48,403 bases of DNA, from positions 1 through 48,403 of IMG/VR virus record IMGVR_UViG_3300006793_000055; one strand, 5' to 3'. The translations under genes were made by a program, and so were the position numbers. Source of the DNA: a virus. Positions 29,493 to 48,403 of this stretch are shown here, one piece after another. Under the pieces are notes generated by a model. That model was not told the DNA's origin and ran no database searches. It saw only the letters and a list, made by a program, of their open reading frames with translations. Position 1 is the stretch's first letter. Every line of letters begins with the position of its first letter.

Positions 29493-30479
29493 ATGGCACC
29501 ACAAAGTTATATTTTAGGGGGAAAAATCAGAGCATCTGATTTTAATATATTTGCAGGAGATATCAACGATATAGTTGGTACAGGAAGCGGAGACTCCGGT
29601 TATGGGCAAGACCATCTTGTAGTTACACAAGCAATTGCTGGAAACAGCATAACAGCCGCACTTTGGGATGAGTTATTAACTGGACTCAACTATGCGGCTC
29701 AACACCAAGGTACAAGCATTAACGTCCCAAGTAACACAAACGATGCGGCATGGCCTTCGCCTGGTAATGTTATATCTATATTATCAACATTAGAAACTGA
29801 TATTTCAAATGTTGTTTCTAATAAATTAAACAGTGATATTTCGTATATGACTGTTGTTTCTAATACAATTTCAGCGTCCGAAACCTATGTAGACCCGAAT
29901 AATGGTACTCCTAATTGGACAAACGCAAATCAAGTATATTATGAAGTTAGAGTTACATTTGCTTCAGAAGATTCAAGAAGACAGTTTTTCAATGCGGGCG
30001 GTGAAATTCGTTTCGACTCTACGTTATCTAACGTAGGGTCAGATGCACAGAGTTTAGACTGGCAAGGTGTACTTAGTACAATTGCAACAGTAAAACTTGG
30101 ACATACTGCAACCGAGAGTTCTGCTAATGTAGGAACTCCTGGTGTTGGTTTTAATCAACTAACTTCAACTTATCAAAATGTATACACAAAAGGTGGTACA
30201 GGTGATTATTCTGCTAACCAATTAAATATCAACGCAAAACTTCAAGGAACAGAGTCAATCGATGTAAAAATCTCATTTGATGATGCACATGCGGCCGATA
30301 GTGGTTCTTGGAGCAATAACGGTGGTGGTTCATGGACTGGTACTGATTATGTTGCAGGTACACTGACTGTTGAAGTAGGCGAACTAGTAGCAGATGACTC
30401 TCCTGATGGTGTTGAAATGACTGATGGTACAAACTCTGATTGGGACCGTACATACACGACTCTTTCTGCACTTTCTTAA
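29493..30479 (+). CDS. Virion structural protein, tandem paralogue B
   Basis: This 328-aa protein is a diverged tandem copy of the preceding gene. Shared features include AGGEIRF (~residue 170) and ADSGSWSNNGGGSWTGTD (~residue 270), plus an N-terminal helical segment with NDIVGTGSGDSGYGQD. It is the last virion-type gene before the sigma70-type promoter at 30488. The start is ATG 29493, 13 bases after the previous stop, with a GGAAG site. The function is not known; a paired fibre subunit or two variants of a receptor-facing protein are possibilities. Confidence 0.6.
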   Translation: MAPQSYILGGKIRASDFNIFAGDINDIVGTGSGDSGYGQDHLVVTQAIAGNSITAALWDELLTGLNYAAQHQGTSINVPSNTNDAAWPSPGNVISILSTLETDISNVVSNKLNSDISYMTVVSNTISASETYVDPNNGTPNWTNANQVYYEVRVTFASEDSRRQFFNAGGEIRFDSTLSNVGSDAQSLDWQGVLSTIATVKLGHTATESSANVGTPGVGFNQLTSTYQNVYTKGGTGDYSANQLNINAKLQGTESIDVKISFDDAHAADSGSWSNNGGGSWTGTDYVAGTLTVEVGELVADDSPDGVEMTDGTNSDWDRTYTTLSALS

Positions 30480-30487
30480 AAATTCAC

Positions 30488-30516
30488 TTGACATTAGTAT
30501 AAATTTAATGTATTAT
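30488..30516 (+). promoter_or_regulatory. Sigma70-type promoter of the glycan/radical SAM operon
   Basis: TTGACA (30488-30493), 17 bases, TATTAT (30511-30516), with CAC before the -35 box. It begins only 9 bases after the last virion gene's stop. An inverted repeat, GTATTAT (30510-30516) and ATAATAC (30521-30527), overlaps the -10 box and may be an operator. It is the only strong promoter found for the ~18 kb downstream and the only early-type promoter seen on the plus strand. Confidence 0.8.
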
Positions 30517-30539
30517 AGTAATAATACAGGAGATTAACC

Positions 30540-30914
30540 ATGTCAAACAAAAAGAGCAACACAGAACAACAAGAACGCCTAGCACAAGCATTAGATTTTT
30601 CTAACACAATGAAGACGTTCAACCTATCTAAAAACAATTTAAAAGTTAAAACACAAAATCTATTAAGTTACAGCACAGCGGGAGGTTCCTTTATTGTAGA
30701 CCAATCGTTGATTTCGTTTGTACACTTTGTTGTAACTAGCGGTAAAACTGAAATTAAAATACTAGACAAGAATAGCATACCAATTCATATTGAAGACACT
30801 GTTAAATTCCTTGAAGAAATATCTAGTTTGTATTTTGAAGTAACAAATGATTACTATAATGAGTATCAGAAGTTACGTAGTTCACGCAAGATTGAGAAGG
30901 TGTTAGAAATCTAA
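30540..30914 (+). CDS. Hypothetical protein, first gene of the accessory operon
   Basis: This 124-aa soluble protein is not recognised by family. It has a basic, polar N-terminus, a central beta-like stretch (LLSYSTAGGSFIVDQSLISF) and a C-terminal charged helix (EYQKLRSSRKIEKVLEI). Its start follows the promoter by about 24 bases with an AGGAG site. The final A of its TAA is the first base of the next gene's ATG, so translation is coupled. It may be regulatory or structural; nothing in the sequence decides. Confidence 0.65.
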   Translation: MSNKKSNTEQQERLAQALDFSNTMKTFNLSKNNLKVKTQNLLSYSTAGGSFIVDQSLISFVHFVVTSGKTEIKILDKNSIPIHIEDTVKFLEEISSLYFEVTNDYYNEYQKLRSSRKIEKVLEI

Positions 30915-31783
30915 TGAGCAAAGGAATTATTATATTTGCTCAAAATAATGACTACATAAACTACGGAAAAACAGCATGTGCTTGTGCGGGTTTTGTACGT
31001 AAAAATATGTCAAAGTTTGATGAGATTTGTCTCGTCACCGATGAATACACATTAAAGAGCGATGAAAAACTGATTAATGAATACTTTGATAGAGTAATCG
31101 TTTCAGAAAGTTCACAGCCTGCTAATATCAGGTTATTTAAGGATACTTCATCTACACCAGAATATGCTTCATTTAGAAATATGTCACGTGCAGATGTGTA
31201 TGAGTTGTCACCATATGATGAAACTCTTGTCATTGATGGTGACTATTTTATTATGAATAATGTACTGGACCAAGTATGGGGCAGTGAAAATGACTTTATG
31301 ATAAATTGTCAGTATAGGGACGTTGCCGGTAGACATGGCGGCAACGTTTCCTATATCGATAACTTTAGTATTCCTATGTATTGGGCAACAGTTTTTTATT
31401 TTAAGAAATCAGAATACACAGAACATTTATTTACACTAATAAATCATATTAAGTATAACTTTAAATACTATTATTATTTGTATAACTGTAGCGGTAACTT
31501 GTTTAGAAACGACTTTGCATTCTCTATGGCATTGCATATTCTAAACGGTGGTGTCGAATTTAAAGTACCTAGATTGCCTATTGAATATTTAAATAACAGT
31601 TTTGATTTAGATGATATCTATAGAGTAAACTCACACAATGATATTATTATGTTTTGTGCGACACCCGAATCGACAGAAAAACATATATTAACCCGGTTCA
31701 CAAACACAGACCTGCATATTATGAATAAGAAAGCAATAGCAAGATGTGTCGATGACCTCTTGGAAAACGGAGAGAAAATATGA
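30914..31783 (+). CDS. Putative GT-A-fold glycosyltransferase 1
   Basis: This 289-aa protein starts with IIIFAQNNDYINYG, an alternating strand typical of nucleotide-sugar-binding GT-A folds, and has a DxD motif, DGD at residues 108-110 (LVIDGDYFIMN), which would bind a metal and nucleotide sugar. It shares layout with the next gene, so the two look like paralogues. No membrane segment is visible. It probably transfers a sugar to a glycan or lipid carrier; donor and acceptor are unknown. A GC-rich hairpin lies within the gene at 31317-31350. It overlaps the upstream gene by 1 base and the downstream gene by 4. Confidence 0.68.
   Translation: MSKGIIIFAQNNDYINYGKTACACAGFVRKNMSKFDEICLVTDEYTLKSDEKLINEYFDRVIVSESSQPANIRLFKDTSSTPEYASFRNMSRADVYELSPYDETLVIDGDYFIMNNVLDQVWGSENDFMINCQYRDVAGRHGGNVSYIDNFSIPMYWATVFYFKKSEYTEHLFTLINHIKYNFKYYYYLYNCSGNLFRNDFAFSMALHILNGGVEFKVPRLPIEYLNNSFDLDDIYRVNSHNDIIMFCATPESTEKHILTRFTNTDLHIMNKKAIARCVDDLLENGEKI
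31317..31350 (+). other. GC-rich inverted repeat inside glycosyltransferase 1
   Basis: CGTTGCCG (31321-31328) pairs with CGGCAACG (31339-31346) around a 10-base loop; pairing extends outward to 31317/31350 with two G-U pairs. Three T's follow directly, so it may act as a weak intragenic terminator or pause. Confidence 0.5.
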
Positions 31784-32739
31784 ACAAAGATGACCTATCC
31801 AATGATATCCTCGATGTTTATAATGATGACCGTCTAAGTACACCAAAAGATGTCACTGGGTCACTCGTAAGAGGGTCAAGCAGAGGCTACATCGTAATCG
31901 CACAGAATAATAAAGAACACGATTACTTAGAAATGACATATGCATTGGCTTTGTCACTCAAAGCAACACAAAAAGAAAACGCAATCTGTGTATGTGTTGA
32001 CGAGAACACAAAATCATTAATTGAAGACAAGCATAGAAAAGTGTTTGATTATATTGTAGATATTCCGTGGGGTGATATTGACCCAGACGCAAGGTGGAAA
32101 ATACATAATAAATGGAAATACCCACATATGACTCCATTCAAAGAAACTATTATACTTGATAGTGATATGGTATTCACAACAAGCGTAGACCATTGGTGGG
32201 ATTATCTTTCTAAGAAAGACATATGGGCATGTACGAATGTTAAGACATTTCGCAATGAAGATGTCATTGATGATTTCTATAGAAAGAAATTTACAGAATT
32301 AGAATTACCAAACGTGTATAGTAATTTTACATATTTTAAGGAAAGCGAATTGACATTTCAGTTCTTTAAAATGGTAGAGTTGATTATGAAACATTGGAAT
32401 GTGTATTATGATAAGTTTCTTAAAGGAGTAGGTCAAAAGTGGATGAGTGCCGATGTTGCGTTTGCACTTGCTATTAAACTACTTGACATTGAAGAAGAAA
32501 CATGTGATTATTCTATCAAAGATGTTCCTACATTCGTACACATGAAAAGTAAAATTCAAAATATACCACATAATCAAATTGATAATGATTGGACAAAGAG
32601 TATTCCTAGTGAAATGAGTTCTGATTTGTCTATTCGTGTCGGTAATTATATACAAAGTTTACCATTTCACTATGTAGAAAAAGAATGGATGAGCGCAGAT
32701 AAAATTAAAATATTAGAGGATGCAGTAAATGAAAAGTAG
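31780..32739 (+). CDS. Putative GT-A-fold glycosyltransferase 2
   Basis: This 319-aa protein has an IVIAQNNKEHDYLEMTYALA strand-helix start near residue 40 and a DxD motif, DSD at 127-129 (TIILDSDMVF), as in GT8-like enzymes. The AQNN motif and overall layout match the preceding gene, pointing to gene duplication and divergence. A Trp-rich segment after the DxD (VDHWWDYLSKKDIWACT) may form the acceptor site. It overlaps the preceding gene by 4 bases (ATGA) and the following gene by 11. Activity is inferred from fold-type motifs only. Confidence 0.7.
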   Translation: MNKDDLSNDILDVYNDDRLSTPKDVTGSLVRGSSRGYIVIAQNNKEHDYLEMTYALALSLKATQKENAICVCVDENTKSLIEDKHRKVFDYIVDIPWGDIDPDARWKIHNKWKYPHMTPFKETIILDSDMVFTTSVDHWWDYLSKKDIWACTNVKTFRNEDVIDDFYRKKFTELELPNVYSNFTYFKESELTFQFFKMVELIMKHWNVYYDKFLKGVGQKWMSADVAFALAIKLLDIEEETCDYSIKDVPTFVHMKSKIQNIPHNQIDNDWTKSIPSEMSSDLSIRVGNYIQSLPFHYVEKEWMSADKIKILEDAVNEK

Positions 32740-33295
32740 TTTAGTAAAAACAGACACATGCCGCGCAGTCTATTTTAATGAGTATAATAAAATTGTACAA
32801 ATATCTAATAGAGAGATTGATAGAAAGGAACTATTTGCTTGGTTCGAAATTGAAGATGTTATGGGGTTACTAGATGGTTCATTGAAACTATCAGACCATG
32901 TAGTCAGGCGCACAAGTAATCCTTTAATTTTTGAAATTATAAAAAGTAAAGTTGATATAAAAAGACGCAGTAAGAACAACCAATTATATAAGATTGAAAA
33001 TAGTGATAATCCAGATATTACAGTATCTATGAAAGATGACATTTTATCAATATCATGTAGTAATGAATTAAAGCAGAAACTTGAATTGAATGAAGGACAA
33101 GATATAACTGTTGCAGGTAAATCACATCATGTTTTTTTCGTTACACACAAAGACAGACCTGATTTCTTAATTCAGACAGTTACAGTCCCATTTTCAGAAT
33201 TGCTGACAACCGGGAAAAACGTTAAAGTCGAATATAATAAATACAATGTAAGCGTATATACGCAGAAGTATTTTGACAATTATTCATGGAGGTAG
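32729..33295 (+). CDS. Hypothetical protein in the accessory operon
   Basis: This 188-aa protein has no recognised family. It is polar, without membrane segments or a signal peptide. An early helix with FAWFEIEDVMGLLDGSLKL is followed by a beta-rich C-terminal half (DITVSMKDDILSISCSN, then GQDITVAGKSHHVFFV). Its stop is followed by the next gene's ATG after 1 base. Placement between glycosyltransferases suggests a role in the same pathway, such as a scaffold or binding protein. Confidence 0.62.
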   Translation: MKSSLVKTDTCRAVYFNEYNKIVQISNREIDRKELFAWFEIEDVMGLLDGSLKLSDHVVRRTSNPLIFEIIKSKVDIKRRSKNNQLYKIENSDNPDITVSMKDDILSISCSNELKQKLELNEGQDITVAGKSHHVFFVTHKDRPDFLIQTVTVPFSELLTTGKNVKVEYNKYNVSVYTQKYFDNYSWR

Positions 33296-33296
33296 T

Positions 33297-34274
33297 ATGG
33301 CAGAGATAGTCATAGGCGATTTAGATGTATTCTATTTAAGTTACGATGAGCCAAATAAAGAAGAACACTGGGCAAATATAATGATGAAGTTTCCTTATGC
33401 GAAACGAGTCGACGGTGTTAAAGGATTTGACAACGCACACAAAGAATGCGCAAGACAAAGTGAGACAGACAGGTTTATTACTATTGATGGTGATAACATT
33501 GTTGATGAGAAGTTTTTTGATTTAGCAATTGTGTTCCCAGATGACACAGACTTAACAAATTCGGTTATTTCTTGGTCAGCAAAGAACGTTGTTAACGGAT
33601 TAGTATATGGTAACGGCGGCATCAAATGTTGGCCTGTAGACCTTGTATTAGAAATGCAAACACACGAAAATGCAGTTGACGAAACAAAAAAAGTTGACTT
33701 CTGTTGGGACTTGAATTACATTCAGATGAACAATGTGTACTCTCAAGTATTTAATGCAGGTTCTCCGTTTCAGGCATTTAGAGCAGGATACCGTGAAGGT
33801 GTTAAGATGTCACTAGACGAAGGCAAAACCGTACCCGTTGAAGATTTCAAAAAGCGTATCTGGCCTAAGAACTATGAACGCCTTCTTACTTGGTGCAACG
33901 TTGGGTCAGATGTAGAAAATGGCGTATGGGCATGCTATGGTGCAAGACTAGGATGCTATGATGTTAACTTTGTAGAAGATTATCTATTAGAAAACATTTC
34001 AAGTTATGATTGGTTCAAAGAATATTTTGAAGGTACAGTACTTCCTAAGTTTGAAGGTGGTGATGAAAAATGCGAAGCAACAAAAGTAAAATGGGATTAT
34101 GACAAACTATATGATGAAGCAATTCGTATCGGTGATATCCTATCAGATAAGATTGGTATGGAAATTGCAGACCCAACTGCTGAGTTGGCTACGTTTTTTA
34201 AACGAGTGTATATGAATCCACCAAGAAACCCTAATCCATTAGCAACTGAAAAACAAACTGGTTGGGATAGATAA
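33297..34274 (+). CDS. Putative GT-A-fold glycosyltransferase 3
   Basis: This protein has 325 aa from ATG 33297, chosen because GGAGG lies 4 bases upstream; a TTG at 33273 would add 8 residues inside the upstream gene. Seen: an N-terminal strand (IVIGDLDVFYLSYDEP) and a DGDN motif at 64-67 (FITIDGDNIVDEKF), the expected metal/nucleotide-sugar site. Later a Trp/Cys-rich segment (LTWCNVGSDVENGVWACYG) is notable. It is not an obvious close relative of glycosyltransferases 1 and 2. The C-terminal tail (TEKQTGWDR) resembles the ...TQPGWNTE tail of the radical SAM protein at 36057. The ATG overlaps the next gene's start in a TAATG junction. Confidence 0.62.
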   Translation: MAEIVIGDLDVFYLSYDEPNKEEHWANIMMKFPYAKRVDGVKGFDNAHKECARQSETDRFITIDGDNIVDEKFFDLAIVFPDDTDLTNSVISWSAKNVVNGLVYGNGGIKCWPVDLVLEMQTHENAVDETKKVDFCWDLNYIQMNNVYSQVFNAGSPFQAFRAGYREGVKMSLDEGKTVPVEDFKKRIWPKNYERLLTWCNVGSDVENGVWACYGARLGCYDVNFVEDYLLENISSYDWFKEYFEGTVLPKFEGGDEKCEATKVKWDYDKLYDEAIRIGDILSDKIGMEIADPTAELATFFKRVYMNPPRNPNPLATEKQTGWDR

Positions 34275-36064
34275 TGGCAAACTATAACGATGATGCTAAG
34301 GCATGCAGAGTTAAACTAGATGATTTGTCACCATCAATGTGTATGGCAAAATGGTTACAAGTCAGTATGCACTTGCCTCAAGGACGCACACATAGTTGCT
34401 ATCATCCGCCAACACATCCTATTCCACTAGATGAGTTAAAAGTAAATCCTAATGCACTTCATAATACTAAGTTCAAATTAGAAGAACGCAGGCAAATGAA
34501 AAATGGTATAAGACCAGAAGGATGCCAGTATTGTTGGAATGTTGAAGATGCAAATAAAGATGCGTTAAGTGATAGACATTATCGTTCAAGTGAGTGGTGG
34601 GTCAAAGACGCATGGGAAGAGGTAGTAAACAGTCCTTGGGACCATGATATCTCTCCACGCTATGTTGAAGTAAACTTCAATCAAGCATGTAACTTTAAGT
34701 GTGCATATTGTTCACCTCACTTATCTACTGCATGGGAAGATGATATTAAAGAGAACAGACCTTTCTTATTTTCTGATGGTGGTGGTCATAACAATATACA
34801 AGAACTTAAAACTATTGGCTTAATGCCTTTAGAAGTTGCACGAAAAGATAATCCGTATATTGAAGCGTTTTGGAAATGGTGGCCAGATGCTTATCCTAAT
34901 CTAAAGATATTTCGTATGACAGGTGGTGAACCTCTCATGGACAAAAATACATTTAAAGTACTAGATTATATTAGAGATAACCCGAACCCTGATTTAGAAA
35001 TTTCATTGACAACAAACATGTGCCCACCAGATGATGCGCTATTTGATAAGTTTATTGAAAAAGTAAAACTACTAGAACAGCCATTAATTTCTGATAACGA
35101 TAATACAGTCAAAGAAGTAGATTTTGCCCATTTATTTAAACTTCCAGCAAATCCAAATTATAGAAATATTCTGTTTTATGCAAAAGACCCAAAAGACGGC
35201 AGTGACTGGAAAGAATGGCCACAGTACATTATTGAAGAAACATTACATGGTGCAGAAGCATGTAGAATTATGCCCAACACAGATGTTATGTTATGGAAGG
35301 ATGTGACACAAACATTTAAAGGTCTGGGACCATGCGAAGAAACAGATGATAATAGTTTTGTATACCTAAGCGAATATAAAAAGAACCCAGATTGGAATAT
35401 ATGGGACCATGTATATAATAATGTTTCATGTAAACATATCAGTGTGTTTATCAGTGTCGATAGTATAGGAAAACAAGCAGAATATATACGTGATGGGTTG
35501 GAGTGGGACAAATTAAAGAGAAATGTTAATAGACTACTATCAGAGACTACAAGAGTTAGTGTAACATTTATTAATACATTTAACTTATTGAGTGTCCCTT
35601 CATTGCGTGGGTTCTTAGATTATATCTTAGAAACTAGAGAGAAGTTTGGATATAAGTATCAAGTTGAAAAGAGACACAAAGTATTAGCACAAAAGGTATG
35701 GTTTGATGTTCCTTATATGAGAGACCCAAACTGGTTCAACATTCAATTATGTGATGATGGCATGTTAGACATAATACAACAGAACATCAATTATATGAAA
35801 ACAAAAGTTCTAAACAATATGGAATATGGGGTGACGTATGAAGGGTTCAAAGAGTATGAGGTCTTAAAATTAGAAAGAGATTTGGCTTGGGCTAAAGAAG
35901 GTGAAAATATTTATGAAGAAGACCTTAGTAACAGGTTAATTCGTTTTTATGAATACTTTGAACAGTATGACCAAAGACGAGGACTTAACTTTATAGAAAC
36001 TTTTCCTGAAATGGAGGAGTTTTGGTACGAAGCACAGGAAGAATATAGAGAAAAGTATGGGTAG
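34274..36064 (+). CDS. Radical SAM protein 1, N-terminal twitch-like domain, with internal insertion
   Basis: Radical SAM enzymes use a 4Fe-4S cluster and S-adenosylmethionine to start radical chemistry. The CxxxCxxC motif is CNFKCAYC (Cys139, 143, 146), followed by the SAM-binding MTGGEPL. The first ~100 residues contain CMAKW, SCYHPP and a CQYCW pair, a cysteine pattern like a SPASM/twitch auxiliary cluster but placed before the radical SAM core. At 596 aa it is the longest of the set: about 120 residues (~262-382) are inserted before the shared motif GKQAEYIRDGL. It is closest to the next gene. The reaction is unknown; peptide or sugar modification are both possible. Confidence 0.82.
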   Translation: MANYNDDAKACRVKLDDLSPSMCMAKWLQVSMHLPQGRTHSCYHPPTHPIPLDELKVNPNALHNTKFKLEERRQMKNGIRPEGCQYCWNVEDANKDALSDRHYRSSEWWVKDAWEEVVNSPWDHDISPRYVEVNFNQACNFKCAYCSPHLSTAWEDDIKENRPFLFSDGGGHNNIQELKTIGLMPLEVARKDNPYIEAFWKWWPDAYPNLKIFRMTGGEPLMDKNTFKVLDYIRDNPNPDLEISLTTNMCPPDDALFDKFIEKVKLLEQPLISDNDNTVKEVDFAHLFKLPANPNYRNILFYAKDPKDGSDWKEWPQYIIEETLHGAEACRIMPNTDVMLWKDVTQTFKGLGPCEETDDNSFVYLSEYKKNPDWNIWDHVYNNVSCKHISVFISVDSIGKQAEYIRDGLEWDKLKRNVNRLLSETTRVSVTFINTFNLLSVPSLRGFLDYILETREKFGYKYQVEKRHKVLAQKVWFDVPYMRDPNWFNIQLCDDGMLDIIQQNINYMKTKVLNNMEYGVTYEGFKEYEVLKLERDLAWAKEGENIYEEDLSNRLIRFYEYFEQYDQRRGLNFIETFPEMEEFWYEAQEEYREKYG

Positions 36065-37595
36065 AAAACATTGGGATGGCGAGACACTCCATCAGTATAA
36101 AACAAGAATGATTGACACTATTAGTCCATCATATTGTGCCGCTAAGTGGTATAATGCTACTATCTGGTTAGGGCATGGACAAACTACAAGTTGCCATCAC
36201 CCACCAGGACATTGGATTCCTTTAGAAGAACTTGAAAGCAATCCATCAGCAATTCATAATACCCCACATAAAAAGAAAATGCGCAAGATGATGCAAGAGG
36301 GTGAGCGACCAGCAGAGTGTGAATACTGTTGGAAAGTTGAAGATATGGGAAAAAATCATATATCTGACCGTGTATTTAAAACAGAGATATTTGAAGATAA
36401 AGATGTAGTTGATTCTGCTACAATGCCATGGGATGAAAATGTCAATCTAAAGACTATGGAAATCTCGTTTGATAAGGCATGCAATTTTAAATGTTCTTAT
36501 TGTAATCCAGCATTTAGTACAGCATGGGTTAAAGATATCAAAGACTATGGTGGATATCAGAATATTCAATCTGATGGTCGCGGACACTTTATCGATACTG
36601 CGCCGTGGGCTGACTCACCGACAAAAAGACAAGAAGACAATCCGTATGTACAAGCATTTCATAAGTGGTGGGAGAGTGACTTAGCAGATTGTTTAGAAGA
36701 AATTCGTATCACCGGTGGTGAACCTATTATGCACAAAGGCACGTGGAAATTGTTCGATTGGTTCGAACAGAATCCAGATAGAGGACGTAATATGCGTTTT
36801 GCCATTAATAGTAACTTATGCCCAGAAACTAATAAAGTATTAGATAAGTTGATTGAAAAATCACATCATATTCCTAACTTTGAAATTTACACTTCAATGG
36901 AAGCAGTTGGTAAACAAGCAGAATATATACGTGATGGACTAGATTATAACTTCTGGAAAGAAAATATTCATCGTGTTCTAAAAGAATCAAACGTATCTAA
37001 ATTGCATATGATGATGACAATTAATGCATTATGTTTAACTACAATCACAGAATTTATGGATGAAATGTTAGACTTGCGCATTGAATACGGCCTACGTGCG
37101 CCATCGATGACATTAAACATTTTGCGTTTTCCATCGTTTCAAAGTGCGGCTATTCTTCCAATTGAAATTAAAACATTCTATAAAGAAAAGTTAGAGAAGT
37201 GGTTGAGGAGTTCTAGGCCTGTTCGTATGTTAAGTGAAGGCGAAGTAGCAAGTATACAACGTCTAGTTGATTACTTAGATATTGTTAAAACCCCACATAA
37301 GAATACAGCAGACCAAGATAAACTATATAATGACTTCAAGTCATTTTTTGAACAATATGATATCCGTCGAAATAAGAACTTTGTTGATACTTTTCCTGGA
37401 CCGATTGCTGATTGGTATACAACGTTAAAAGCAGAAGTACCTAACAAAGATGACATCTTAAGTGGTAAGTTTGGAATCGAAATAATTATTAATTCATCTG
37501 ACCCAGCAACGCAAGAGGAATATACAGGCGGTGATGATGAGCATGAAAAAACACAACCTGGATGGAATACTGAAACAGATAGTCTAGGGAGTTAG
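36057..37595 (+). CDS. Radical SAM protein 2, N-terminal twitch-like domain
   Basis: This 512-aa paralogue of the preceding gene has the cluster motif CNFKCSYC (Cys142, 146, 149) and TGGEP. The N-terminal cysteine segment reads CAAKW, then SCHHPPGHWIPLEEL and CEYCWKVED. The match to radical SAM 1 in this segment is very close, including the (H/N)NT and SDR motifs, showing duplication. GKQAEYIRDGL is shared. It overlaps the upstream gene by 8 bases, and the sulfotransferase starts 2 bases after its stop. The last ~30 residues are acidic and Gly/Thr-rich, and may be a flexible tail. Confidence 0.83.
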   Translation: MGRKHWDGETLHQYKTRMIDTISPSYCAAKWYNATIWLGHGQTTSCHHPPGHWIPLEELESNPSAIHNTPHKKKMRKMMQEGERPAECEYCWKVEDMGKNHISDRVFKTEIFEDKDVVDSATMPWDENVNLKTMEISFDKACNFKCSYCNPAFSTAWVKDIKDYGGYQNIQSDGRGHFIDTAPWADSPTKRQEDNPYVQAFHKWWESDLADCLEEIRITGGEPIMHKGTWKLFDWFEQNPDRGRNMRFAINSNLCPETNKVLDKLIEKSHHIPNFEIYTSMEAVGKQAEYIRDGLDYNFWKENIHRVLKESNVSKLHMMMTINALCLTTITEFMDEMLDLRIEYGLRAPSMTLNILRFPSFQSAAILPIEIKTFYKEKLEKWLRSSRPVRMLSEGEVASIQRLVDYLDIVKTPHKNTADQDKLYNDFKSFFEQYDIRRNKNFVDTFPGPIADWYTTLKAEVPNKDDILSGKFGIEIIINSSDPATQEEYTGGDDEHEKTQPGWNTETDSLGS

Positions 37596-37597
37596 AC

Positions 37598-38257
37598 ATG
37601 AAAAATTTGATAATATTCTACGGAAGAACAGGTAGCACGATGTTGTATAGTAGTTTATTACATCATTACTCCATGTCCAGAGGCGATGTATCTGAAATGC
37701 ATAATGATAATTTTATGAATGCAGTATCTTATACAAAGTCAAATAGTGACTGGACTATGAAAATGCATATCGACACTGGTATTACTATAGACCGTCACTC
37801 TAACTTACTAGAATATTTTATTGATAGTGAACAAGTAGACAACATCTATTTCTCATATAGACAAGATATATTTGACACCTATCTTAGTAATGTCATAGCA
37901 AGACATTCTGAGGTTTGGAATAGTGAAACAAAACATGAATATAAGCCAATAGACACAGAAAAATCTTATGATATCTTAACTCAATGTGGCGTTGAGATGA
38001 ACGATACATTTAATCGTTGGTACTTCAACCAAATTAGATTACATCAAAAATATAATATCTTACCTATATCATATGAACAACTGAATACAACTGGCAAGGT
38101 TAGTAAAGTTATTCCAGTACATACTACAATAGTAAAACAAAATTCGTTGGAAGATAAATTATCTCTATTCGACAATGAAGCAGTAGTGAGAGAATGTTTT
38201 TGGAAACTATTAAAACAGTGGTCGTGGGATGATAACGGACGACTACGGTATGATTGA
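37598..38257 (+). CDS. Sulfotransferase-like protein
   Basis: This 219-aa protein has the two PAPS-binding signatures of sulfotransferases. The 5'-phosphosulfate loop is GRTGSTML at residues 9-16, directly after the first strand. The 3'-phosphate motif is YRQDIFDTYLSN, with Arg88 and Ser97. It would transfer sulfate from PAPS to a hydroxyl or amine, here probably on a glycan. The length is short but covers both sites. It lies between radical SAM proteins 2 and 3; the following start lies inside its last codons. No PAPS-making genes are in the window, so host PAPS would be needed. Confidence 0.75.
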   Translation: MKNLIIFYGRTGSTMLYSSLLHHYSMSRGDVSEMHNDNFMNAVSYTKSNSDWTMKMHIDTGITIDRHSNLLEYFIDSEQVDNIYFSYRQDIFDTYLSNVIARHSEVWNSETKHEYKPIDTEKSYDILTQCGVEMNDTFNRWYFNQIRLHQKYNILPISYEQLNTTGKVSKVIPVHTTIVKQNSLEDKLSLFDNEAVVRECFWKLLKQWSWDDNGRLRYD

Positions 38258-40705: not shown

Positions 40706-42107
40706 AAGAATTATACCAATATGGAATGATAATGGGACACAACCAGAAGAAAGTGAGAACAAAACTTTCTGTATGGCACCGTGGACACACACTTACATAT
40801 CTCCACAAGGTGAGAGAAGAATGTGTTGTGCATCACGTGAAGAACATCAGTTTCAGAAGCAATACATTGATGCATCAAATGATGATTCATATGGTATAGA
40901 AAAGAAAGTCAAAACTAAAGCAGATGATTTCAACCCACTCACATTAGAAGAACATTGGAACTCACCGTATATGATGGACATAAGAAAGAAACTTATGGCA
41001 GGTGAAACTATCCCACAGTGTGACGTTTGTAACGATGACATTCTAAGTTTGAGTTCATATAAAAAATGGTTTACTGGGCATCTATTCAATCACAAGATTG
41101 AAGAAGCATTTGAGAAGACAGATGATGATGGCAGAACATCTATGCCTACTATTTCTTTTGACTATCGCTTTAGCAATCTATGTAACTTCAAGTGTAGAAT
41201 GTGCGGAGAACTATTGAGTTCAAGTTGGGAAGCAGAGAAAAAGAAGCATGACTTGTGGTCACCCGAAGAACATCCGTTTATGATACCAGATGTAAAAAAG
41301 AAAATGAATTCATTTCAGATAGATGTTGTTGAACCAGAATTCAGAAAAGCAATTGATGACGGTATCGTAGAAGAAATTTATTGGGTCGGTGGCGAACCAC
41401 TCATGTATGATATTCATTGGGAGACATTAGAGAAGATGACACAGGCAGGTACTGCCAAAGATTGTTATCTAAGATATAACTCTAATCTATCCCGTGTTGA
41501 CTTTAAAGGAAAAAATCTATATGATTATCTTCCACAGTTTAAAGATTGGATGATGTGTGCAAGTATTGACGGCACAGGTAAGATTGGTGAATTCATTCGA
41601 ACTGGTTTAGTATGGGAAGAGTGGTTAGAAAACTTTAAACAAGGAGTTGCTTTGCCGGGCGGCGAGCATAAAATGTTATTGGACTTGACTATTACAGGTC
41701 CTGGTATGTTCTCATTGAAAGAACTGTTTGACTTAAGCCAAGAACTAAATGTTCGTATGGAAACAAAGATGATGTTTGCATTTCATCCTGATATGGTGTT
41801 CTCTCCGTTTGCATGGCCAAGACATATACTTGACAAAGTAATACAAGACAACTTAGATTACATGGAACCAAGAGCAACTACGAAGCAAGAGACACTAATC
41901 AAAACATTACATGAAATGAAAAATCGTCCTACATTTGCACAACAATGGAACGACCACCATGAACCATCAGTAGGTGGTAGAAGATTTCAAGCAAAACTGA
42001 GTGATATAAGAAAAGATAAAGAAACTGGTATGCCAACAATCGAAGAAATATACAAAGAGCATTGTCCAGAATTATATAACTGGTGGATGGAATATGAAAA
42101 TGGATAA
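40698..42107 (+). CDS. Radical SAM protein 5, N-terminal twitch-like domain
   Basis: This 469-aa protein has FCMAPWTHTYISPQGERRMC in the N-terminal segment, then CDVCNDD, and CNFKCRMC (Cys162, 166, 169) with VGGEPLM after it. The motif GEFIRTGL matches the EYIR motif of its paralogues. The pre-core segment is longer than in radical SAM 4 because of an insert after CC (residues ~45-80). It overlaps the upstream gene by 8 bases and the SGNH gene by 14. It has a His/Trp-rich C-terminal region. The reaction is unknown. Confidence 0.84.
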   Translation: MTKRIIPIWNDNGTQPEESENKTFCMAPWTHTYISPQGERRMCCASREEHQFQKQYIDASNDDSYGIEKKVKTKADDFNPLTLEEHWNSPYMMDIRKKLMAGETIPQCDVCNDDILSLSSYKKWFTGHLFNHKIEEAFEKTDDDGRTSMPTISFDYRFSNLCNFKCRMCGELLSSSWEAEKKKHDLWSPEEHPFMIPDVKKKMNSFQIDVVEPEFRKAIDDGIVEEIYWVGGEPLMYDIHWETLEKMTQAGTAKDCYLRYNSNLSRVDFKGKNLYDYLPQFKDWMMCASIDGTGKIGEFIRTGLVWEEWLENFKQGVALPGGEHKMLLDLTITGPGMFSLKELFDLSQELNVRMETKMMFAFHPDMVFSPFAWPRHILDKVIQDNLDYMEPRATTKQETLIKTLHEMKNRPTFAQQWNDHHEPSVGGRRFQAKLSDIRKDKETGMPTIEEIYKEHCPELYNWWMEYENG

Positions 42108-42927
42108 AGATAATTTACATAGTGAAATATCATTTAATAATCCATGGCCTCTAAACTATGTAGTAAGAAGACAGGCATTAACCGGGTATGAAGTTGAAAA
42201 TAAAAACTATGATTTTGAACTACAATGGTTACTAGCAGATAGCAGTAAAAATTATGACCCGTCTAAAACTAACTATACTAAAGATAGTGTATCATACAAA
42301 CTAAGCCTACAGGGTTGGAGATGTGATAACTTTGACACCATAGACTTTATTAATAAGAAATCTATAATTTACTTAGGTTGCAGTCATGGGTTTGGTATAG
42401 GGGTCCCAGAAGATGAAATATGGACTACTCAACTACATGACATGATAGAAAAAGAATTTGATACAGAATATAACTTTATTAATTTGTGTATACCTGGCGG
42501 GTCTACAGATGAATGGTTAAGATTTTTGCCTTACATTAAAAAGTTTAATCCGAAGATGATATGTGCTAATATTCCAAACCATGATAGAATGTTTATTATA
42601 GATGACAAGAGTGGCATCCCAATGAATATGTGTCCAACTAATGTTGAAGAAAATATAGTATATAAGAATATGCTGTTGTATGCAAATGAGTATAGACTAT
42701 ATAAAGAACAAATGACCTTAAATGCCGTAAATGCATTATGCGAGGTATTAGATATAAAGTTCTATCATAAAAGATTTGGAGAAACCACATTTGTAGATGA
42801 CGATTTTTATAACCCGTTAGAAAACCCAAAAAATAGAAGCAACAGAGCAAGAGATGGTTCTCACCTGGGGTTTGTACATCATAAGACATTCGCTCATCAT
42901 ATAATGGAGATAATTAGAGATGAGTAA
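42094..42927 (+). CDS. SGNH hydrolase-like protein 2
   Basis: This 277-aa protein has YLGCSHGFGIG (block I; the usual GDS is GCSH here), then NLCIPGGSTDEW (block II), CANIPNHDR (block III) and DGSHLGF (block V, DxxH-like). The order and spacing fit an SGNH fold, and the nucleophile Ser is kept. The protein is cytosolic by sequence. SGNH members in glycan clusters often act as O-acetyl esterases or transferases. It lies between radical SAM proteins 5 and 6; its start falls inside the upstream gene and its end overlaps the downstream gene by 8 bases. Confidence 0.7.
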   Translation: MKMDKDNLHSEISFNNPWPLNYVVRRQALTGYEVENKNYDFELQWLLADSSKNYDPSKTNYTKDSVSYKLSLQGWRCDNFDTIDFINKKSIIYLGCSHGFGIGVPEDEIWTTQLHDMIEKEFDTEYNFINLCIPGGSTDEWLRFLPYIKKFNPKMICANIPNHDRMFIIDDKSGIPMNMCPTNVEENIVYKNMLLYANEYRLYKEQMTLNAVNALCEVLDIKFYHKRFGETTFVDDDFYNPLENPKNRSNRARDGSHLGFVHHKTFAHHIMEIIRDE

Positions 42928-44173
42928 AACATTTTGCACCTTACCTTGGATACACCTAGCATCACATCCTCATGGTGGCGCTACAGTATGTTGCGTTGCA
43001 GACCATCATAATGGAATCTCACGCTCACGCATGTATACTAAGAATTCAGATGACGACCCGAGAAGTGTTAGTGGTGATATATTTTTAGATTTAAAAAATC
43101 ATTCTATTGAAGAAATTATGAATGGCGATTCGTTTAACGATGTGAGATTAGATATGTTAAACGGAAAAGAACCAGAGATGTGTAAGAGATGCTACAGAGA
43201 AGAAGAAGCAGGGATATGGAGTAAAAGAGCAAAAGAGAATAAAACATTTTCACACTTTACAATTGAAGAAGCAAGAGATAGAACTAGAAAAGATGGTTCG
43301 TTAAAAGATATTGATTTAGAGTTCATAGAGTTGCGTCTAGGTAATATATGTAACGTCAAATGTAGAACATGCAACCCTTGGAGCAGTAGTAAATGGATAA
43401 CCGACTATAACAAATTGCGTGGTAAATTCACTACATTAGATTTGTTTGACAAAGAGCATAACCAATTCGATTGGCCAGAACAAGATACATTCTGGGATGA
43501 CTTATTTGAAAACTCAAAGAGTGCAAAAGTATTCTATATTAATGGTGGAGAACCAACATTAATCAAAGAGCATTTCAGATTTCTACAACGTATGATTGAT
43601 GCAGGAAGAACGAATGTAAAACTTTGGTACAATATTAACATGACAAATATGACACCTGAGATTATTGATATCTGGAACCAGTTTGATGATGTAGAAGTTG
43701 GGTTTAGCATTGATGACATTGGAATCAGAAATGAGTACATAAGACATCCGACGAAGTGGGATAAGGTGAATGAAACAGTTGATATGCTGTTAGAACATAA
43801 AGATACTATGCAATTTGCAGTAACACAGACTGTTAGTTGGATGAATTTTTATTACTTGGACGAGATGAAAGAATGGGCAAACTCTAACGGTATATGGGTA
43901 CATCATAACTTTGTAACTCAACCTAGTTGGTTCAGCCCAGATGCGTTGCCATTAGAAATAAGAAAAGAAATTATCGAAAAGGTCACACCTGCATTTCCAA
44001 AAGACGAAGACCCAGGAAAGATATTAGGGATTAAACAATTTGGAGAGAAACCAACAGACCTTGCTTTGCTTAAAAAAGCAATGGACTACACGCATTCATT
44101 AGATAAGATGCGCGGTGAAAGTTTTGAAGAAACATTTCCAGAATTATATGATAGACTAAAAGGATACATGTAA
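42920..44173 (+). CDS. Radical SAM protein 6, N-terminal twitch-like domain
   Basis: This 417-aa protein has FCTLPWIHLASHPHGG and TVCC at the N-terminus, then CKRCYREEE, and CNVKCRTC (Cys144, 148, 151). NGGEPTL follows, as does the late motif NEYIRHP. It is the last of the radical SAM set. The ATG is preceded by a GGAG-like site within the SGNH gene, and its TAA shares a base with the next ATG. As with the others, the target is unknown. Confidence 0.84.
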   Translation: MSKTFCTLPWIHLASHPHGGATVCCVADHHNGISRSRMYTKNSDDDPRSVSGDIFLDLKNHSIEEIMNGDSFNDVRLDMLNGKEPEMCKRCYREEEAGIWSKRAKENKTFSHFTIEEARDRTRKDGSLKDIDLEFIELRLGNICNVKCRTCNPWSSSKWITDYNKLRGKFTTLDLFDKEHNQFDWPEQDTFWDDLFENSKSAKVFYINGGEPTLIKEHFRFLQRMIDAGRTNVKLWYNINMTNMTPEIIDIWNQFDDVEVGFSIDDIGIRNEYIRHPTKWDKVNETVDMLLEHKDTMQFAVTQTVSWMNFYYLDEMKEWANSNGIWVHHNFVTQPSWFSPDALPLEIRKEIIEKVTPAFPKDEDPGKILGIKQFGEKPTDLALLKKAMDYTHSLDKMRGESFEETFPELYDRLKGYM

Positions 44174-44937
44174 TGTTTAATTTTGACGAAATGTATCGCA
44201 CACCTCATCCGACATGCAACGATAATTGGTATAACATTTGTGATGATTGGAATTACGAATACCAAACAAGAAGTCTTGCACCTGAAGAAACTATTAACCC
44301 TGAAGATAGAATTGTATTGTGTGTGGGTGATAGTTTTACATTCGGTGACGGAGTATATTACAAAGATACGTGGTCTAATAAGTTACAAGAAACTATATTC
44401 AAAGATTATAAAGTTATAAATGTAGGAGTACGAGGAGCATCAAACGATTCTATTACACATGTATTATCTAATTGGTGTTCAAAATATGGAAACCAAATTG
44501 AAATTGTAATTGCAGGAATGACTTTCGCTTATAGAAGAACATACTATAAAGACAGAAAACCAAACAATTTAAGTGTTGGTTTTATTGGCAGGGATAAAGA
44601 ACAATGGTTTAAAGATATACATTCAAGTTTCATTAACATGCAAAGCGAAGAAAATGATAAAGAAAACTATAATAAGAATATATTGCTTATCAGAGGCTTA
44701 GGTAAAATATGTAATTTTAAAACGTATTGGTGGGATGTCGAAAGACAAATAAATCCAAACTTACATAATTTACATAGTAACCTAATCGATGACAGAGACT
44801 TTACTTATATGCCTATACAAATTTTTATTGCTAATTCAAAGGAAGAACGAGATGCTTACTATATATCAAAAGATGACAGACATTGGTCTTCTAAAGGACA
44901 CACTGAAATTGCAAATATGATTGCGAAGCATATATGA
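44173..44937 (+). CDS. SGNH hydrolase-like protein 3
   Basis: This 254-aa protein carries the textbook block I motif GDSFTFGDGV, the block II Gly in NVGVRGASNDS and a block V motif DRHWSSKGH, typical of SGNH acyl-esterases. Block III is AGMTFAYR, with the usual Asn not obvious, so the oxyanion hole may be altered. It follows radical SAM 6 by a 1-base overlap and overlaps the next gene by 4. It may remove or move acyl groups on the glycan made by this operon; this is inferred. Confidence 0.75.
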   Translation: MFNFDEMYRTPHPTCNDNWYNICDDWNYEYQTRSLAPEETINPEDRIVLCVGDSFTFGDGVYYKDTWSNKLQETIFKDYKVINVGVRGASNDSITHVLSNWCSKYGNQIEIVIAGMTFAYRRTYYKDRKPNNLSVGFIGRDKEQWFKDIHSSFINMQSEENDKENYNKNILLIRGLGKICNFKTYWWDVERQINPNLHNLHSNLIDDRDFTYMPIQIFIANSKEERDAYYISKDDRHWSSKGHTEIANMIAKHI

Positions 44938-46136
44938 TAAAAGTAAATACAACTCATTTCAAAGGTGGAGACTCACAGTGGTGGAGATATCTATTACATA
45001 ACTTCTTTAAGTTTGATATTGCATTCGGCGAAAGCAATAGATTAATATATGAACCGAACATCTCACAAGAGATGGGAAATGCAGGCATTGAGTGTGTTAA
45101 AGATGGTAGTGTAGTAGAACAGTTACCTAAAGACTCTAGAGTCATAATCAGTACAGTACAAGAACCAATATGTGTTGAAGGAGATTTCTTCTACCATGAA
45201 AACATAAATGTGAATGAGAAACTAGAAGAAGCAGGCGCAGATATAAACAATACGTGTTGGGTATCCGGTGACTTCTTTGCACCGCATCATAACAAATCAA
45301 ACATTAAAACGTTTTTTGTTCCTGGGTGGAACCACTACTACTGGGAGGAAAAATATGATATCGCAGACGAGTTCATAGACCAACGAACATGTGATAATAC
45401 ATTCTTAAGTTTTAATAGAATTCACAAACCACATAGAATGTATTTCTTATTACGATTACATGAGATGGGAATGATTGATAACAACTTGATAAGTTGTGCA
45501 AGAGAGATGGACGGGGAAACATTTGAACAGCATATTGAATGGATTGTCAAAGACAAAGAAGATTACAATGAAGTGTTTGACCAGTATAACTTAGTTGATA
45601 TAGATAAAATCAGAACACAAGCAAGTGAGTTTATGAACGACTTGCCGTTAGTATTAGATGTAACAGACTTCCAAGAAAATGGTTGCTTCTATGATGATAC
45701 ATTGTGGAGTTCAGCATCATTCTATCAAAACTCTTTTATGAGTATATTAACAGAGAGCAGTCCGATAGGACCAGGATGTTACATATCAGAAGTTATATTT
45801 AAAGCAATTGTATTCATGCATCCTTTTATGATTATAGGACAACCTAGAACATTAGAAGTTCTCAGAGAATGGGGATTTGATACATTCGATGACGTTTTTG
45901 ATAATAGTTATGACATAGAAGAAGATATGTTCAAACGTACAGAGATGGTATTAGCACAGATGCAAACGATTAATAACATGACGCAAGAAGAATTAAAGCA
46001 GAAAACACTTGAAATCCGTGACAGATTAGTGTATAATAAAAGAAGATATTTTAGTAAAGAATTCAGAGACATCACAAAGGGATACTTTGAAGATGTTTAT
46101 TCATGGTTAGCAGATGAGATACAAAAAGATAAGTGA
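44934..46136 (+). CDS. Putative glycosyltransferase (GT-B/exostosin-like)
   Basis: This 400-aa protein has no DxD at the N-terminus, but residues ~270-325 resemble the C-terminal donor-binding region of fucosyltransferase/exostosin-like enzymes: SILTESSPIGPGCYISEVIF, then HPFMIIGQPRTLEVLREWGF and a TFDDVFD stretch. This (S/T)E ... SE-(K/V)-F-K ... HPF ... G ... L pattern recurs in viral and marine bacterial glycosyltransferases. It is soluble and lacks a signal peptide. It overlaps the SGNH gene by 4 bases and the cupin gene by 23. The class is moderately supported and the specific reaction is unknown. Confidence 0.55.
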   Translation: MIKVNTTHFKGGDSQWWRYLLHNFFKFDIAFGESNRLIYEPNISQEMGNAGIECVKDGSVVEQLPKDSRVIISTVQEPICVEGDFFYHENINVNEKLEEAGADINNTCWVSGDFFAPHHNKSNIKTFFVPGWNHYYWEEKYDIADEFIDQRTCDNTFLSFNRIHKPHRMYFLLRLHEMGMIDNNLISCAREMDGETFEQHIEWIVKDKEDYNEVFDQYNLVDIDKIRTQASEFMNDLPLVLDVTDFQENGCFYDDTLWSSASFYQNSFMSILTESSPIGPGCYISEVIFKAIVFMHPFMIIGQPRTLEVLREWGFDTFDDVFDNSYDIEEDMFKRTEMVLAQMQTINNMTQEELKQKTLEIRDRLVYNKRRYFSKEFRDITKGYFEDVYSWLADEIQKDK

Positions 46137-46509
46137 TAACAGTAAGACAGAAATAGTAAACCCAGATATATTCAAAGATAAACGAGGTACTATATTCAGT
46201 TTCCCGGTCAATGATAGTTTGACTGAGTACAATCTTATGATTACAAAAAAAGACGATGAACGAGGGTATCATTATCATCCTGAGTTTAACGAGTATATGA
46301 TGGTTGTTGCAGGAAGGTGTGAGTACACTGAGTTTGTTTCTAACGGAGAAGATATCACTATTGTATTAGAAGTAGGAGATAGTATTCGTATACCAATCGG
46401 GACTTCTCATAAGTTCAAAGCATTAGAAGATTACTCTTTTGTAAGTATGTTAACAAAGCATTGGGATAAATGTAATAACCCTATTATAAAGGTGACAGGA
46501 AATGAGTGA
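46114..46509 (+). CDS. Cupin-fold protein (sugar epimerase/isomerase-like)
   Basis: This 131-aa protein has cupin metal-site residues His53, His55, Glu60 and His99 (GYHYHPEFNEYMMVVAGR, then PIGTSHKF). Small cupins of this kind occur in dTDP-sugar pathways (WxcM/FdtA- or RmlC-like isomerases). The start overlaps the upstream gene by 23 bases; no closer in-frame ATG exists. The next ORF, a 31-aa membrane peptide, overlaps its last codons. Together with the following aminotransferase and C-methyltransferase it suggests a deoxy-amino sugar branch. Confidence 0.68.
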   Translation: MRYKKISDNSKTEIVNPDIFKDKRGTIFSFPVNDSLTEYNLMITKKDDERGYHYHPEFNEYMMVVAGRCEYTEFVSNGEDITIVLEVGDSIRIPIGTSHKFKALEDYSFVSMLTKHWDKCNNPIIKVTGNE

Positions 46510-46597
46510 TGTTGTAATCATGGCTGGGACTTCAATAATTATTTCAGCAATATATTTAGGCGCTGAACTTTGGAACGGAAGAGATAGAGATGAATAA
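46502..46597 (+). CDS. Small 31-aa membrane peptide
   Basis: This short open frame overlaps both neighbours by 8 bases. Its product (MSDVVIMAGTSIIISAIYLG, then AELWNGRDRDE) has one hydrophobic segment of about 17 residues and a charged tail. The AAAGGTGACAGGA site just upstream and the overlap pattern shared with the rest of the operon support translation. It is too short for a family call; it could anchor a partner in the membrane. Confidence 0.5.
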   Translation: MSDVVIMAGTSIIISAIYLGAELWNGRDRDE

Positions 46598-47195
46598 TCC
46601 ATTTGACACAGTACATGAGTTCGAAAGAGTAATTGCAGATTACTCTGGTGCGCCATATAGTATAGCAACTGACTGTTGCAGTCATGCTATTTTTTTAAGT
46701 GCTATATACTATAAGAAGAAACATGGAACTTGTACTGTTAAAATACCAAAGAACACTTACGTCAGTGCGCCAATGCAAATGATACACGCTGGGTTTGATG
46801 TTGAATTCACAGACAGACAATGGTCTGGTGTATATCCAATCGAACCAACAAACATTGTAGATGGCGCTCCTCGCTTTACTGAGAATATGTATATCAAGGG
46901 AACTTACCAATGTTTGAGTTTTCAATTTAAGAAAATACTAAGTACTATTAAAGGTGGTATGATACTCACAGACGATAAAGATTTTTATGATTGGGCCCAA
47001 CGTGCAGTGCATGATGGCAGAGATATGAGCGTACCATACGAAGATGACAAGATGACAGTTTTAGGATATCATATGTTTATGACACCAGAGACTGCGGCTA
47101 TGGGTCTTGAAAACTTTAAGAAGACGAAAACAGTTAACAAAGATATTGCAGGGTCGTATACGTATCCCGATATCAGTTACATAAAGGATTTATAA
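46590..47195 (+). CDS. DegT/DnrJ/EryC1-type aminotransferase, half length
   Basis: This 201-aa protein matches the large PLP domain of sugar aminotransferases: a nucleotide-sugar-type N-terminus (FERVIADYSG), VDGAP (Asp91, the PLP ring partner) and SFQFKKILSTIKGGMILTDD, where Lys114 or 115 would hold PLP. A short PETAAMGLENF segment follows and the protein then ends. Members usually have ~370-400 aa; the C-terminal small domain is missing. No frameshift is seen and the next gene starts directly at the stop. It may be a minimal enzyme, a binding protein, or work with a partner. A sugar C-3/C-4 aminotransferase role is the family's usual one. Confidence 0.65.
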   Translation: MNNPFDTVHEFERVIADYSGAPYSIATDCCSHAIFLSAIYYKKKHGTCTVKIPKNTYVSAPMQMIHAGFDVEFTDRQWSGVYPIEPTNIVDGAPRFTENMYIKGTYQCLSFQFKKILSTIKGGMILTDDKDFYDWAQRAVHDGRDMSVPYEDDKMTVLGYHMFMTPETAAMGLENFKKTKTVNKDIAGSYTYPDISYIKDL

Positions 47196-48388
47196 TGGCA
47201 AAAGTAAAACAAATTAAAAAGTGTCGTAGTTGTGGTAATACAGACCTTAACGTAGTATTCGACATTGGTGATTTGAAAATTAATGCATTTGTCAAAGAAC
47301 CAAACACAGATATCGGTATGGCTCCTCTTGCACTAGTGCATTGTGATGAGTGTGACTTAGTTCAACTGACACATACTGTACGTGAAGAAGATTTATATAA
47401 AAACTATTGGTATTTGTCTAGGTTAAACAAAAAGATTGTTGATAATTTAGAAAGTATCACAATCGAAGCACAGAAAGAAATAGAACTATACGATAATGAT
47501 ATTGTGGTTGATATCGGTGCAAACGATGGCACACTGCTAAGTTTCTATCCTGATAATGTTATAAAAGTTGGCATCGACCCAGCACAAAATATACACAGTG
47601 AATTGAAAAAGAATTGTGATATTATGATTGGTGACTTCTTTAACATAAAGAATTGGGAAAAGAAGATGCACATTCAAAAAGCACAAGTAGTGACAACAGT
47701 TGCCATGTTCTATGATTTAGATAACCCAAACTCATTTGTACAAGACATTAAGAGTATCCTAAGTGATACTGGTGTTTGGATTTGTCAGTTAATGACTGCA
47801 CGACCTATGCTAGATAGTAACGACTTGGGGAACGTTATACATGAACACTTAGAATATTATTCATACAAAGCATTAGTAAACTTATTAGAACGTAATGGAC
47901 TTGAGATTTATCAAGTACGTGAGAATGATATTAATGGCGGTAGTTACCAGTTGTTTATACGTCACCTAGATAAAGGTAGTATATCTTATGATGAAGATTG
48001 CTCAACAGAACGATATACTGACTGGAAATCAAACATCGATAAGAATAGAGATGAGACTATGAACTTCTTACGTTCAGAAGTAGCGGACGGTAAGAAAGTT
48101 TATATCATGGGTGCTAGTACAAAGGGTAACACAATCATGCAATACTATGGACTAGATATTGATGTGATTAGTGGCGCCGCTGAGATACATCCAGATAAGA
48201 TTGGTAAGTATCTAGTTGGTAGTAGCATTCCTATTGTACACGAAGATGAAGCAAAAGAGAAAGCAGATTACTTCTTAGTGTTCCCGTTTCACTTTAAAGA
48301 ATTGTTTGTTAATAGAATTTTAAAAGACTGGATTAAAGATGGCGGTAAACTTGTATTTTGTACACCAGAGTTTGAGGTGATAGGCTAA
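47195..48388 (+). CDS. Sugar-nucleotide C-methyltransferase (TylC3/NovU-like)
   Basis: This 397-aa protein shows the three parts of dTDP-sugar C-methyltransferases: an N-terminal zinc site (CRSCG, Cys10/13; CDEC, Cys50/53), a SAM-binding motif VDIGANDGTLL (~105-115), and the HEHLEYYSY region with a catalytic-type His (~225), followed by NGGSYQLF. The C-terminal domain (GASTKGNTIMQYY) completes the family architecture and full length is kept. It would add a methyl to a keto-deoxy sugar carbon. It shares 1 base with the preceding stop and with the next start. Confidence 0.85.
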   Translation: MAKVKQIKKCRSCGNTDLNVVFDIGDLKINAFVKEPNTDIGMAPLALVHCDECDLVQLTHTVREEDLYKNYWYLSRLNKKIVDNLESITIEAQKEIELYDNDIVVDIGANDGTLLSFYPDNVIKVGIDPAQNIHSELKKNCDIMIGDFFNIKNWEKKMHIQKAQVVTTVAMFYDLDNPNSFVQDIKSILSDTGVWICQLMTARPMLDSNDLGNVIHEHLEYYSYKALVNLLERNGLEIYQVRENDINGGSYQLFIRHLDKGSISYDEDCSTERYTDWKSNIDKNRDETMNFLRSEVADGKKVYIMGASTKGNTIMQYYGLDIDVISGAAEIHPDKIGKYLVGSSIPIVHEDEAKEKADYFLVFPFHFKELFVNRILKDWIKDGGKLVFCTPEFEVIG

Positions 48389-48403
48389 TGTTATTGACAA
48401 GTG
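48388..48403 (+). CDS. Start of the next operon gene (partial)
   Basis: An ATG at 48388 overlaps the preceding TAA by 1 base, the junction style of this operon. Only five codons (MLLTS) are in view, so no function can be given. Confidence 0.4.

Follow-up and report, generated by a model that had tools for sequence, protein, structure and literature searches.

The virus record IMGVR_UViG_3300006793_000055 was analysed over its whole 48.4 kb (48,403 nt), which is called the window here and on which all positions are numbered. It carries an operon of 18 open reading frames (ORFs), g1 to g18, at 30540–48388, every one on the + strand. The operon very probably encodes a glycan pathway, and its six radical S-adenosylmethionine (SAM) enzymes probably tailor the glycan. 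A sequence-only reading of this DNA had proposed a pathway that builds and decorates an unusual glycan. This proposal is supported by kept gene order, intact catalytic motifs, and nucleoside diphosphate (NDP)-sugar genes that a ~95% identical contig has past the right edge of the window. The source is probably an uncultured T4-like jumbo phage. The virion genes of the window resemble those of jumbo T4-like phages, and the wedge protein at 14687–18916 is ~34% identical to those of Salicola phage SCTP-2 and the CBB/GAP32 group.

The 5′ part of the operon is kept in a fixed order among uncultured viruses. A search that started from the radical SAM gene g6 retained 80 viral loci; most of them show the order g1–g7, and the 3′ part of the cluster varies in content. 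Because the g6 seed would bias the co-occurrence of radical SAM genes, g1 alone was also used as the seed, and the count took in loci whose downstream sequence extends for 6 kb or more. The genes g2, g3, g4, and g5 follow in order in 59 of 59 g1-seeded uncultured viral contigs, and a radical SAM gene was found within the 7 kb examined in 54 of them. At least 470 relatives of g1 and at least 552 relatives of g3 were confirmed. Viral contigs are not all independent and some share sampling sites; g1–g5 followed by radical SAM genes was recovered in independent contigs, as the sequence-only reading had asked. Isolated-phage records contained no match for g1, g3, g5, or g6, and a tblastn search with three core proteins against 50,697 phage records gave none. 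For g10, just two weak matches from Vibrio phages were found among isolated phages.

The first core gene, g1 (30540–30914), encodes 124 aa with a predicted helix-beta-helix fold. A weak profile match of g1 to MutL was discarded. The proteins of g2 (30914–31783) and g3 (31780–32739) are glycosyltransferase-like, of the GT8/glycogenin-like kind. The DxD motif is conserved in both (D108/D110 in g2, D127/D129 in g3), and they match glycogenin with the E-value 0.26 and glycogenin-2 with 0.0008, respectively. The gene g4 (32729–33295; 188 aa) is a member of the invariant core with no function assigned. The g5 protein (33273–34274) is GT-A-like; the best PDB folds for its AlphaFold model (mean predicted local distance difference test, pLDDT, 87.6) are mostly GT-A enzymes, none of them with E ≤ 0.001. 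PDB profile searches with g4, g8, and g15 returned nothing usable.

All six radical SAM genes that had been read from the sequence were confirmed: g6 (34274–36064), g7 (36057–37595), g9 (38229–39500), g10 (39497–40705), g11 (40698–42107), and g13 (42920–44173). Five of them exceed the curated cut-off (170 bits) of the NCBIfam family N_Twi_rSAM (NF033640), with scores between 249 and 374 bits (g6, 302.9; g7, 321.4; g10, 249.3; g13, 373.5; g11 also above the cut-off), while g9 fails at 49 bits. The g9 protein differs in having a C-terminal SPASM domain in place of the N-terminal twitch. In 24 sequences including g6, g7, g10, g11, and g13, seven cysteines (C27, C46, C88, C91, C142, C146, and C149) are invariant, corresponding to the radical SAM CxxxCxxC and four N-terminal twitch cysteines, and a GGE motif is invariant as well. 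The radical SAM motifs are intact. The core domain of g6 holds an insertion of ~120 aa that is missing from g7 and many relatives. Related contigs contain from 3 to 21 N-terminal-twitch radical SAM matches, and long relatives carry a second cluster of radical SAM and glycosyltransferase genes roughly 10–40 kb away; in G006 it opens with a carbamoyltransferase gene. BtrN and cytosylglucuronate decarboxylase, two twitch/SPASM radical SAM enzymes whose substrates are sugars or aminocyclitols, were recovered as remote PDB sequence matches, over short stretches only.

The 3′ genes and their relatives point to sugars. In the contig G001, ~95% identical, the operon continues past the position of the window edge with genes for a redoxin, an NDP-sugar dehydrogenase, and an epimerase/dehydratase. 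The sugar-nucleotide genes that the sequence-only reading had expected beyond the right edge are therefore found there in this close relative. The clusters of other relatives hold genes for carbamoyltransferases, epimerases, NDP-sugar dehydrogenases, GDP-mannose dehydratase-like proteins, and cytidylyltransferases, together with DegT and QueC-like genes. Two NDP-sugar dehydrogenases (L091:3729–4532 and L093:1956–2750) are 264–267 aa long, and only their N-terminal and central domains were matched. In the window, the cupin g16 (46114–46509; PF07883, 33.3 bits against a cut-off of 27.2), the DegT-type aminotransferase g17 (46590–47195; PF01041, 56.9 against 19.8), and the sugar C-methyltransferase g18 (47195–48388; PF08484 with 91 bits, PF08421, and PF13489) all pass the Pfam cut-offs, in agreement with their earlier assignment. 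The g17 protein has about half the usual length (201 aa); its two matched stretches end at position 242 of the 360 in PF01041, short of a full-length pyridoxal phosphate fold, and a similar length recurs in G001, G006, and L132. Two SGNH proteins had been proposed, and one of them, the GDSL/SGNH hydrolase-like g14 (44173–44937), passes PF00657 (30.1 bits, cut-off 23.6). The SGNH-like g12 (42094–42927) has no Pfam hit and carries GCSH at the GDS position, and is possibly not a hydrolase; it weakly matches a GDSL-type protein adjoining the radical SAM array of a Bdellovibrionota genome. Glycosyltransferase and sugar genes lie together in the tail-fibre region, as in a surface-glycan cluster.

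The intergenic spacing is −29 to +2 bp throughout, with the sole exception of 80 bp (46510–46589) between g16 and g17. The tight packing, the strand, and the coordinates of the proposed ~18-kb operon hold, but the gene count is 18 rather than ~20, and the spacing exceeds the overlaps of 1–23 bases and gaps of up to 2 bases given earlier. The 23-bp overlap of g4 and g5 hinges on a TTG start of g5; the ATG at 33297 is the likelier true start. At the place of the 80-bp gap, the related contig G006 has a gene for 299 aa (L092:17986–18885), and this suggests that a gene was lost in this lineage.

A sigma70-type promoter precedes g1 on the + strand at 30488–30516, as had been read. It matches TTGACA-N17-TATTAT exactly. 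Only two exact TTGACA-N17-TAYTAT sites are present in the window, and the second is ahead of minus-strand late-sigma and SbcCD genes. With one mismatch allowed, the window has 8 sites where 1.95 would be expected, a count not attained in any of 100 shuffles. Most of 29 diverged relatives keep both hexamers 50–65 nt 5′ of g1 (mean match 10.2 of 12, against 8.1 in shuffled upstream regions), including relatives whose upstream DNA is otherwise diverged. The virion genes appear to use another signal. The window has four exact GATAAATA sites, all intergenic, and three of them precede + strand virion genes (4061, 14286, and 27808); their number is not above chance and their placement alone is striking. 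The T4 late box TATAAATA was rejected as the late signal; it occurs once, within a gene, and GATAAATA fits instead. Since the conserved sigma70-type site differs from the GATAAATA boxes of virion genes, the operon promoter would be of the early or middle class. The earlier statement that the operon has no internal promoter cannot be demonstrated: promoter-like matches are at chance level (97 against 95.8), and two 11/12 matches sit within genes. Between the SbcC-like and SbcD-like genes lies an ORF of 213 aa (1455–2096) with no assigned function.

Bacterial relatives of the radical SAM proteins are concentrated in Bdellovibrionota. The better matches of a radical SAM profile against 84,980 species genomes were mostly from this phylum. 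The g6/g7 profile was found in 61 of 241 Bdellovibrionota genomes versus 1 of 349 Pseudomonadota genomes, where the lone match comes from a Pelagibacter bin and sits on a phage-like contig. Bdellovibrionota metagenome-assembled genomes (MAGs) contain up to 19 such genes each. A FastTree phylogeny of 99 radical SAM proteins places g11 and g13 each with Bacteriovoracaceae genes (support 1.00), and g6 and g7 in mixed clades with Bacteriovoracaceae paralogues (support ≥ 0.85). Relatives of g11 with 42–51% identity were found from six Bdellovibrionota genomes. In L113, the radical SAM array adjoins ribosomal L21/L27 genes and is therefore chromosomal. In G045, genes for GDSL-type proteins (one above the cut-off), an NTP_transf nucleotidyltransferase, and GT2 proteins adjoin the relatives of g11, g13, and g7, and the neighbourhoods of bacterial g5 homologues are rich in GT2. 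The g1–g4 core was not found in the Bdellovibrionota chromosomal loci examined. In L112 (8008–16000), an integrase-like gene lies just 5′ of a g7-g13-g11-g7 array; this MAG contig bears conjugation-type genes too, and a mobile element is suggested. A member of Bdellovibrionota may be the phage host, a proposal drawn from gene relatedness alone and given slightly less than an even chance.

From the gene content and order, the promoter and late-box layout, the radical SAM motifs, the co-occurrence of sugar genes, and the Bdellovibrionota homology, we infer the following reactions, timing, acceptor, and purpose. The operon would be driven by an early or middle host-type promoter, independently of the late virion genes. 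The invariant sugar-adding core would consist of g1 and g4 with three soluble GT-A-type transferases (g2, g3, and g5), and NDP-sugars would be supplied by the host and by phage dehydrogenase, epimerase, DegT, and C-methyltransferase genes. The sugars would then undergo radical C–H chemistry by the twitch/SPASM radical SAM enzymes; by analogy with BtrN and cytosylglucuronate decarboxylase, they may be oxidised, epimerised, or deoxygenated, or may acquire new bonds. The SGNH proteins and accessory enzymes would trim or add substituents. The likeliest acceptor would be the infected cell's own envelope glycan, whose early alteration would keep progeny and rival phages from binding it. Taken as a whole, early-expressed glycan assembly with radical decoration, probably of the host envelope, is a tentative reading that falls a little short of even odds.

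Regarding the acceptor, the host envelope is given an even chance and the virion a distinctly lower one; the preference for the envelope is modest and comes from the kind of promoter and from the glycan loci of bacteria. If the virion were the acceptor, the soluble transferases and radical SAM enzymes would act in the cytoplasm on tail or adhesin proteins, such as those encoded at 28568–29479 and 29493–30479, and a host-like or variable sugar coat would alter binding or shield the virion. Several observations weigh against the envelope pathway, and three of them point to the virion. In 73 of 76 loci, a member of the tail-gene family of 29493 lies at most three genes ahead of g1. Among ~249 phage cluster genes, none is predicted to encode a flippase, a polymerase, or any other polytopic membrane protein, and therefore export would have to be the host's. 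The predicted fold of g1 weakly resembles DUF4376 phage proteins. Furthermore, the protein at 28568 has 29% Ser+Thr versus 16–20% in the other large virion proteins of the window, and no terminator-like site was found between the tail genes and g1. On the other side, the operon has its own sigma70-type promoter instead of the GATAAATA boxes of virion genes, and homologous bacterial radical SAM genes lie in glycan loci without phage tail genes. GT8 enzymes of lipopolysaccharide (LPS) synthesis are peripheral transferases that likewise require no membrane genes of their own. The remaining contrary points concern function and host. For the three proposed GT-A proteins (g2, g3, and g5), which stay candidates, the profile or fold evidence is weak. 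The fourth proposed glycosyltransferase, g15 (44934–46136), has no family match in Pfam or PDB profile searches and is left as a candidate without database support. The same holds for the proposed sulfotransferase g8 (37598–38257), a P-loop-like protein with a GRTGST motif only and no Pfam or meaningful PDB match. MAG binning was rejected as host evidence because such phage contigs bin inconsistently (Bdellovibrionota, Pelagibacter, Rickettsiales, and Neomarinimicrobiota).

Three further explanations were weighed. Radical SAM enzymes with SPASM/twitch domains are best known from peptide maturation, and several sub-threshold NCBIfam matches are peptide maturases; the operon could thus modify a ribosomal peptide whose product is then glycosylated, as in mycofactocin. 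This is improbable and was rejected because a precursor gene is wanting: no + strand ORF of at least 60 aa lies between the packed genes, and all genes from g1 onward exceed 120 aa. The NDP-sugar, carbamoyl, and DegT genes also indicate sugars. Modification of phage DNA or nucleotides, in which the transferases would glucosylate bases and the radical SAM enzymes act on them, recalls the DNA glucosylation known in phages and the QueC-like genes in the clusters of relatives, but it is very unlikely. Carbamoyltransferases, NDP-sugar dehydrogenase/epimerase, SGNH proteins, a sugar C-methyltransferase, and homologues in bacterial glycan loci do not fit it. Equally improbable is host cargo that is under little selection in the phage and decays through gene loss. 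The variable 3′ part, the 80-bp gap where G006 has a gene, and the half-length DegT gene could be so explained. It was rejected because the catalytic motifs and the core order are conserved, the latter invariant across diverged phages; the promoter is also conserved, and the short DegT is kept at similar length in several phages.

Phage-borne glycan genes of other kinds were compared with the operon. A Gtr-type serotype-conversion cassette consists of the membrane flippase GtrA and membrane GtrB/GtrC; no membrane segment is predicted in any of the 18 operon proteins. In the account of Zaragoza-Solas et al. (2020, PMC7029224), the host recognition cluster of pelagimyophages is a large, nonsyntenic, and hypervariable island of tail-fibre genes and several glycosyltransferases, GT8 being the commonest; a change of the host O-chain is the supposed role of these transferases, and marine members are said to include radical SAM proteins. 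The operon is similar in having GT8-like glycosyltransferases by tail genes in a T4-like phage, together with radical SAM enzymes. It differs in the single fixed order of g1–g5 and in the number of twitch radical SAM matches, up to 21 per contig. A virome study reported the joint occurrence of radical SAM, RmlD, and glycosyltransferase genes (PMC7150976). Searches of open-access literature gave no description of the fixed core, of the multi-copy twitch radical SAM module, or of the sharing with Bdellovibrionota. The operon had been called the best candidate for an undescribed system; this stands for the core and radical SAM module within that literature, but not for phage glycan clusters beside tail fibres, which are already known (PMC7029224).

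The name N_Twi_rSAM gives no function, although five of the six radical SAM proteins exceed its cut-off; here, several paralogues are linked with phage glycosyltransferases. BtrN and cytosylglucuronate decarboxylase offer a precedent in carbohydrate chemistry, but the matches are short and the substrate is not transferable. The Bdellovibrionota arrays (L351 in G045, and L113) have relatives of g7, g11, and g13 side by side with 37–52% identity, in G045 likewise near GDSL/SGNH, nucleotidyltransferase, and GT2 genes. They differ in the presence of polytopic membrane proteins and in the missing g1–g4 core. It is conceivable, though rather less likely than the envelope reading, that a multi-enzyme radical SAM glycan pathway with undescribed chemistry is common to jumbo phages and predatory Bdellovibrionota, with the glycan on tail fibres or the predator surface controlling binding.

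Hundreds of uncultured viral contigs carry the core by tail genes, yet the tblastn searches of phage records with three core proteins gave none. Up to 21 oxygen-sensitive iron-sulfur enzymes per phage contig are a heavy investment, implying that their product is truly valuable to the virus. Should this product prove to be a surface glycan, it would connect phage host recognition with superinfection control and new radical sugar chemistry in a testable way, and the module would be a candidate marker for phages of Bdellovibrionota.

Among isolated phages, the Wroclawvirus phages Cassandra and PA5oct share the giant virion protein, and a homologue of the 29493 protein follows it. After this homologue they differ, with small opposite-strand genes instead of an annotated glycosyltransferase/radical SAM cluster; no annotated cluster is present at that place in isolated phages sharing this tail gene. 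The marine Vibrio phages K566 and K567 (~255 kb) likewise have several radical SAM genes, but at 21% identity, and g3 and g5 are unmatched in any phage record. In K566 (L089:14705–27604), radical SAM genes lie near a PagP-like lipid A acylation gene.

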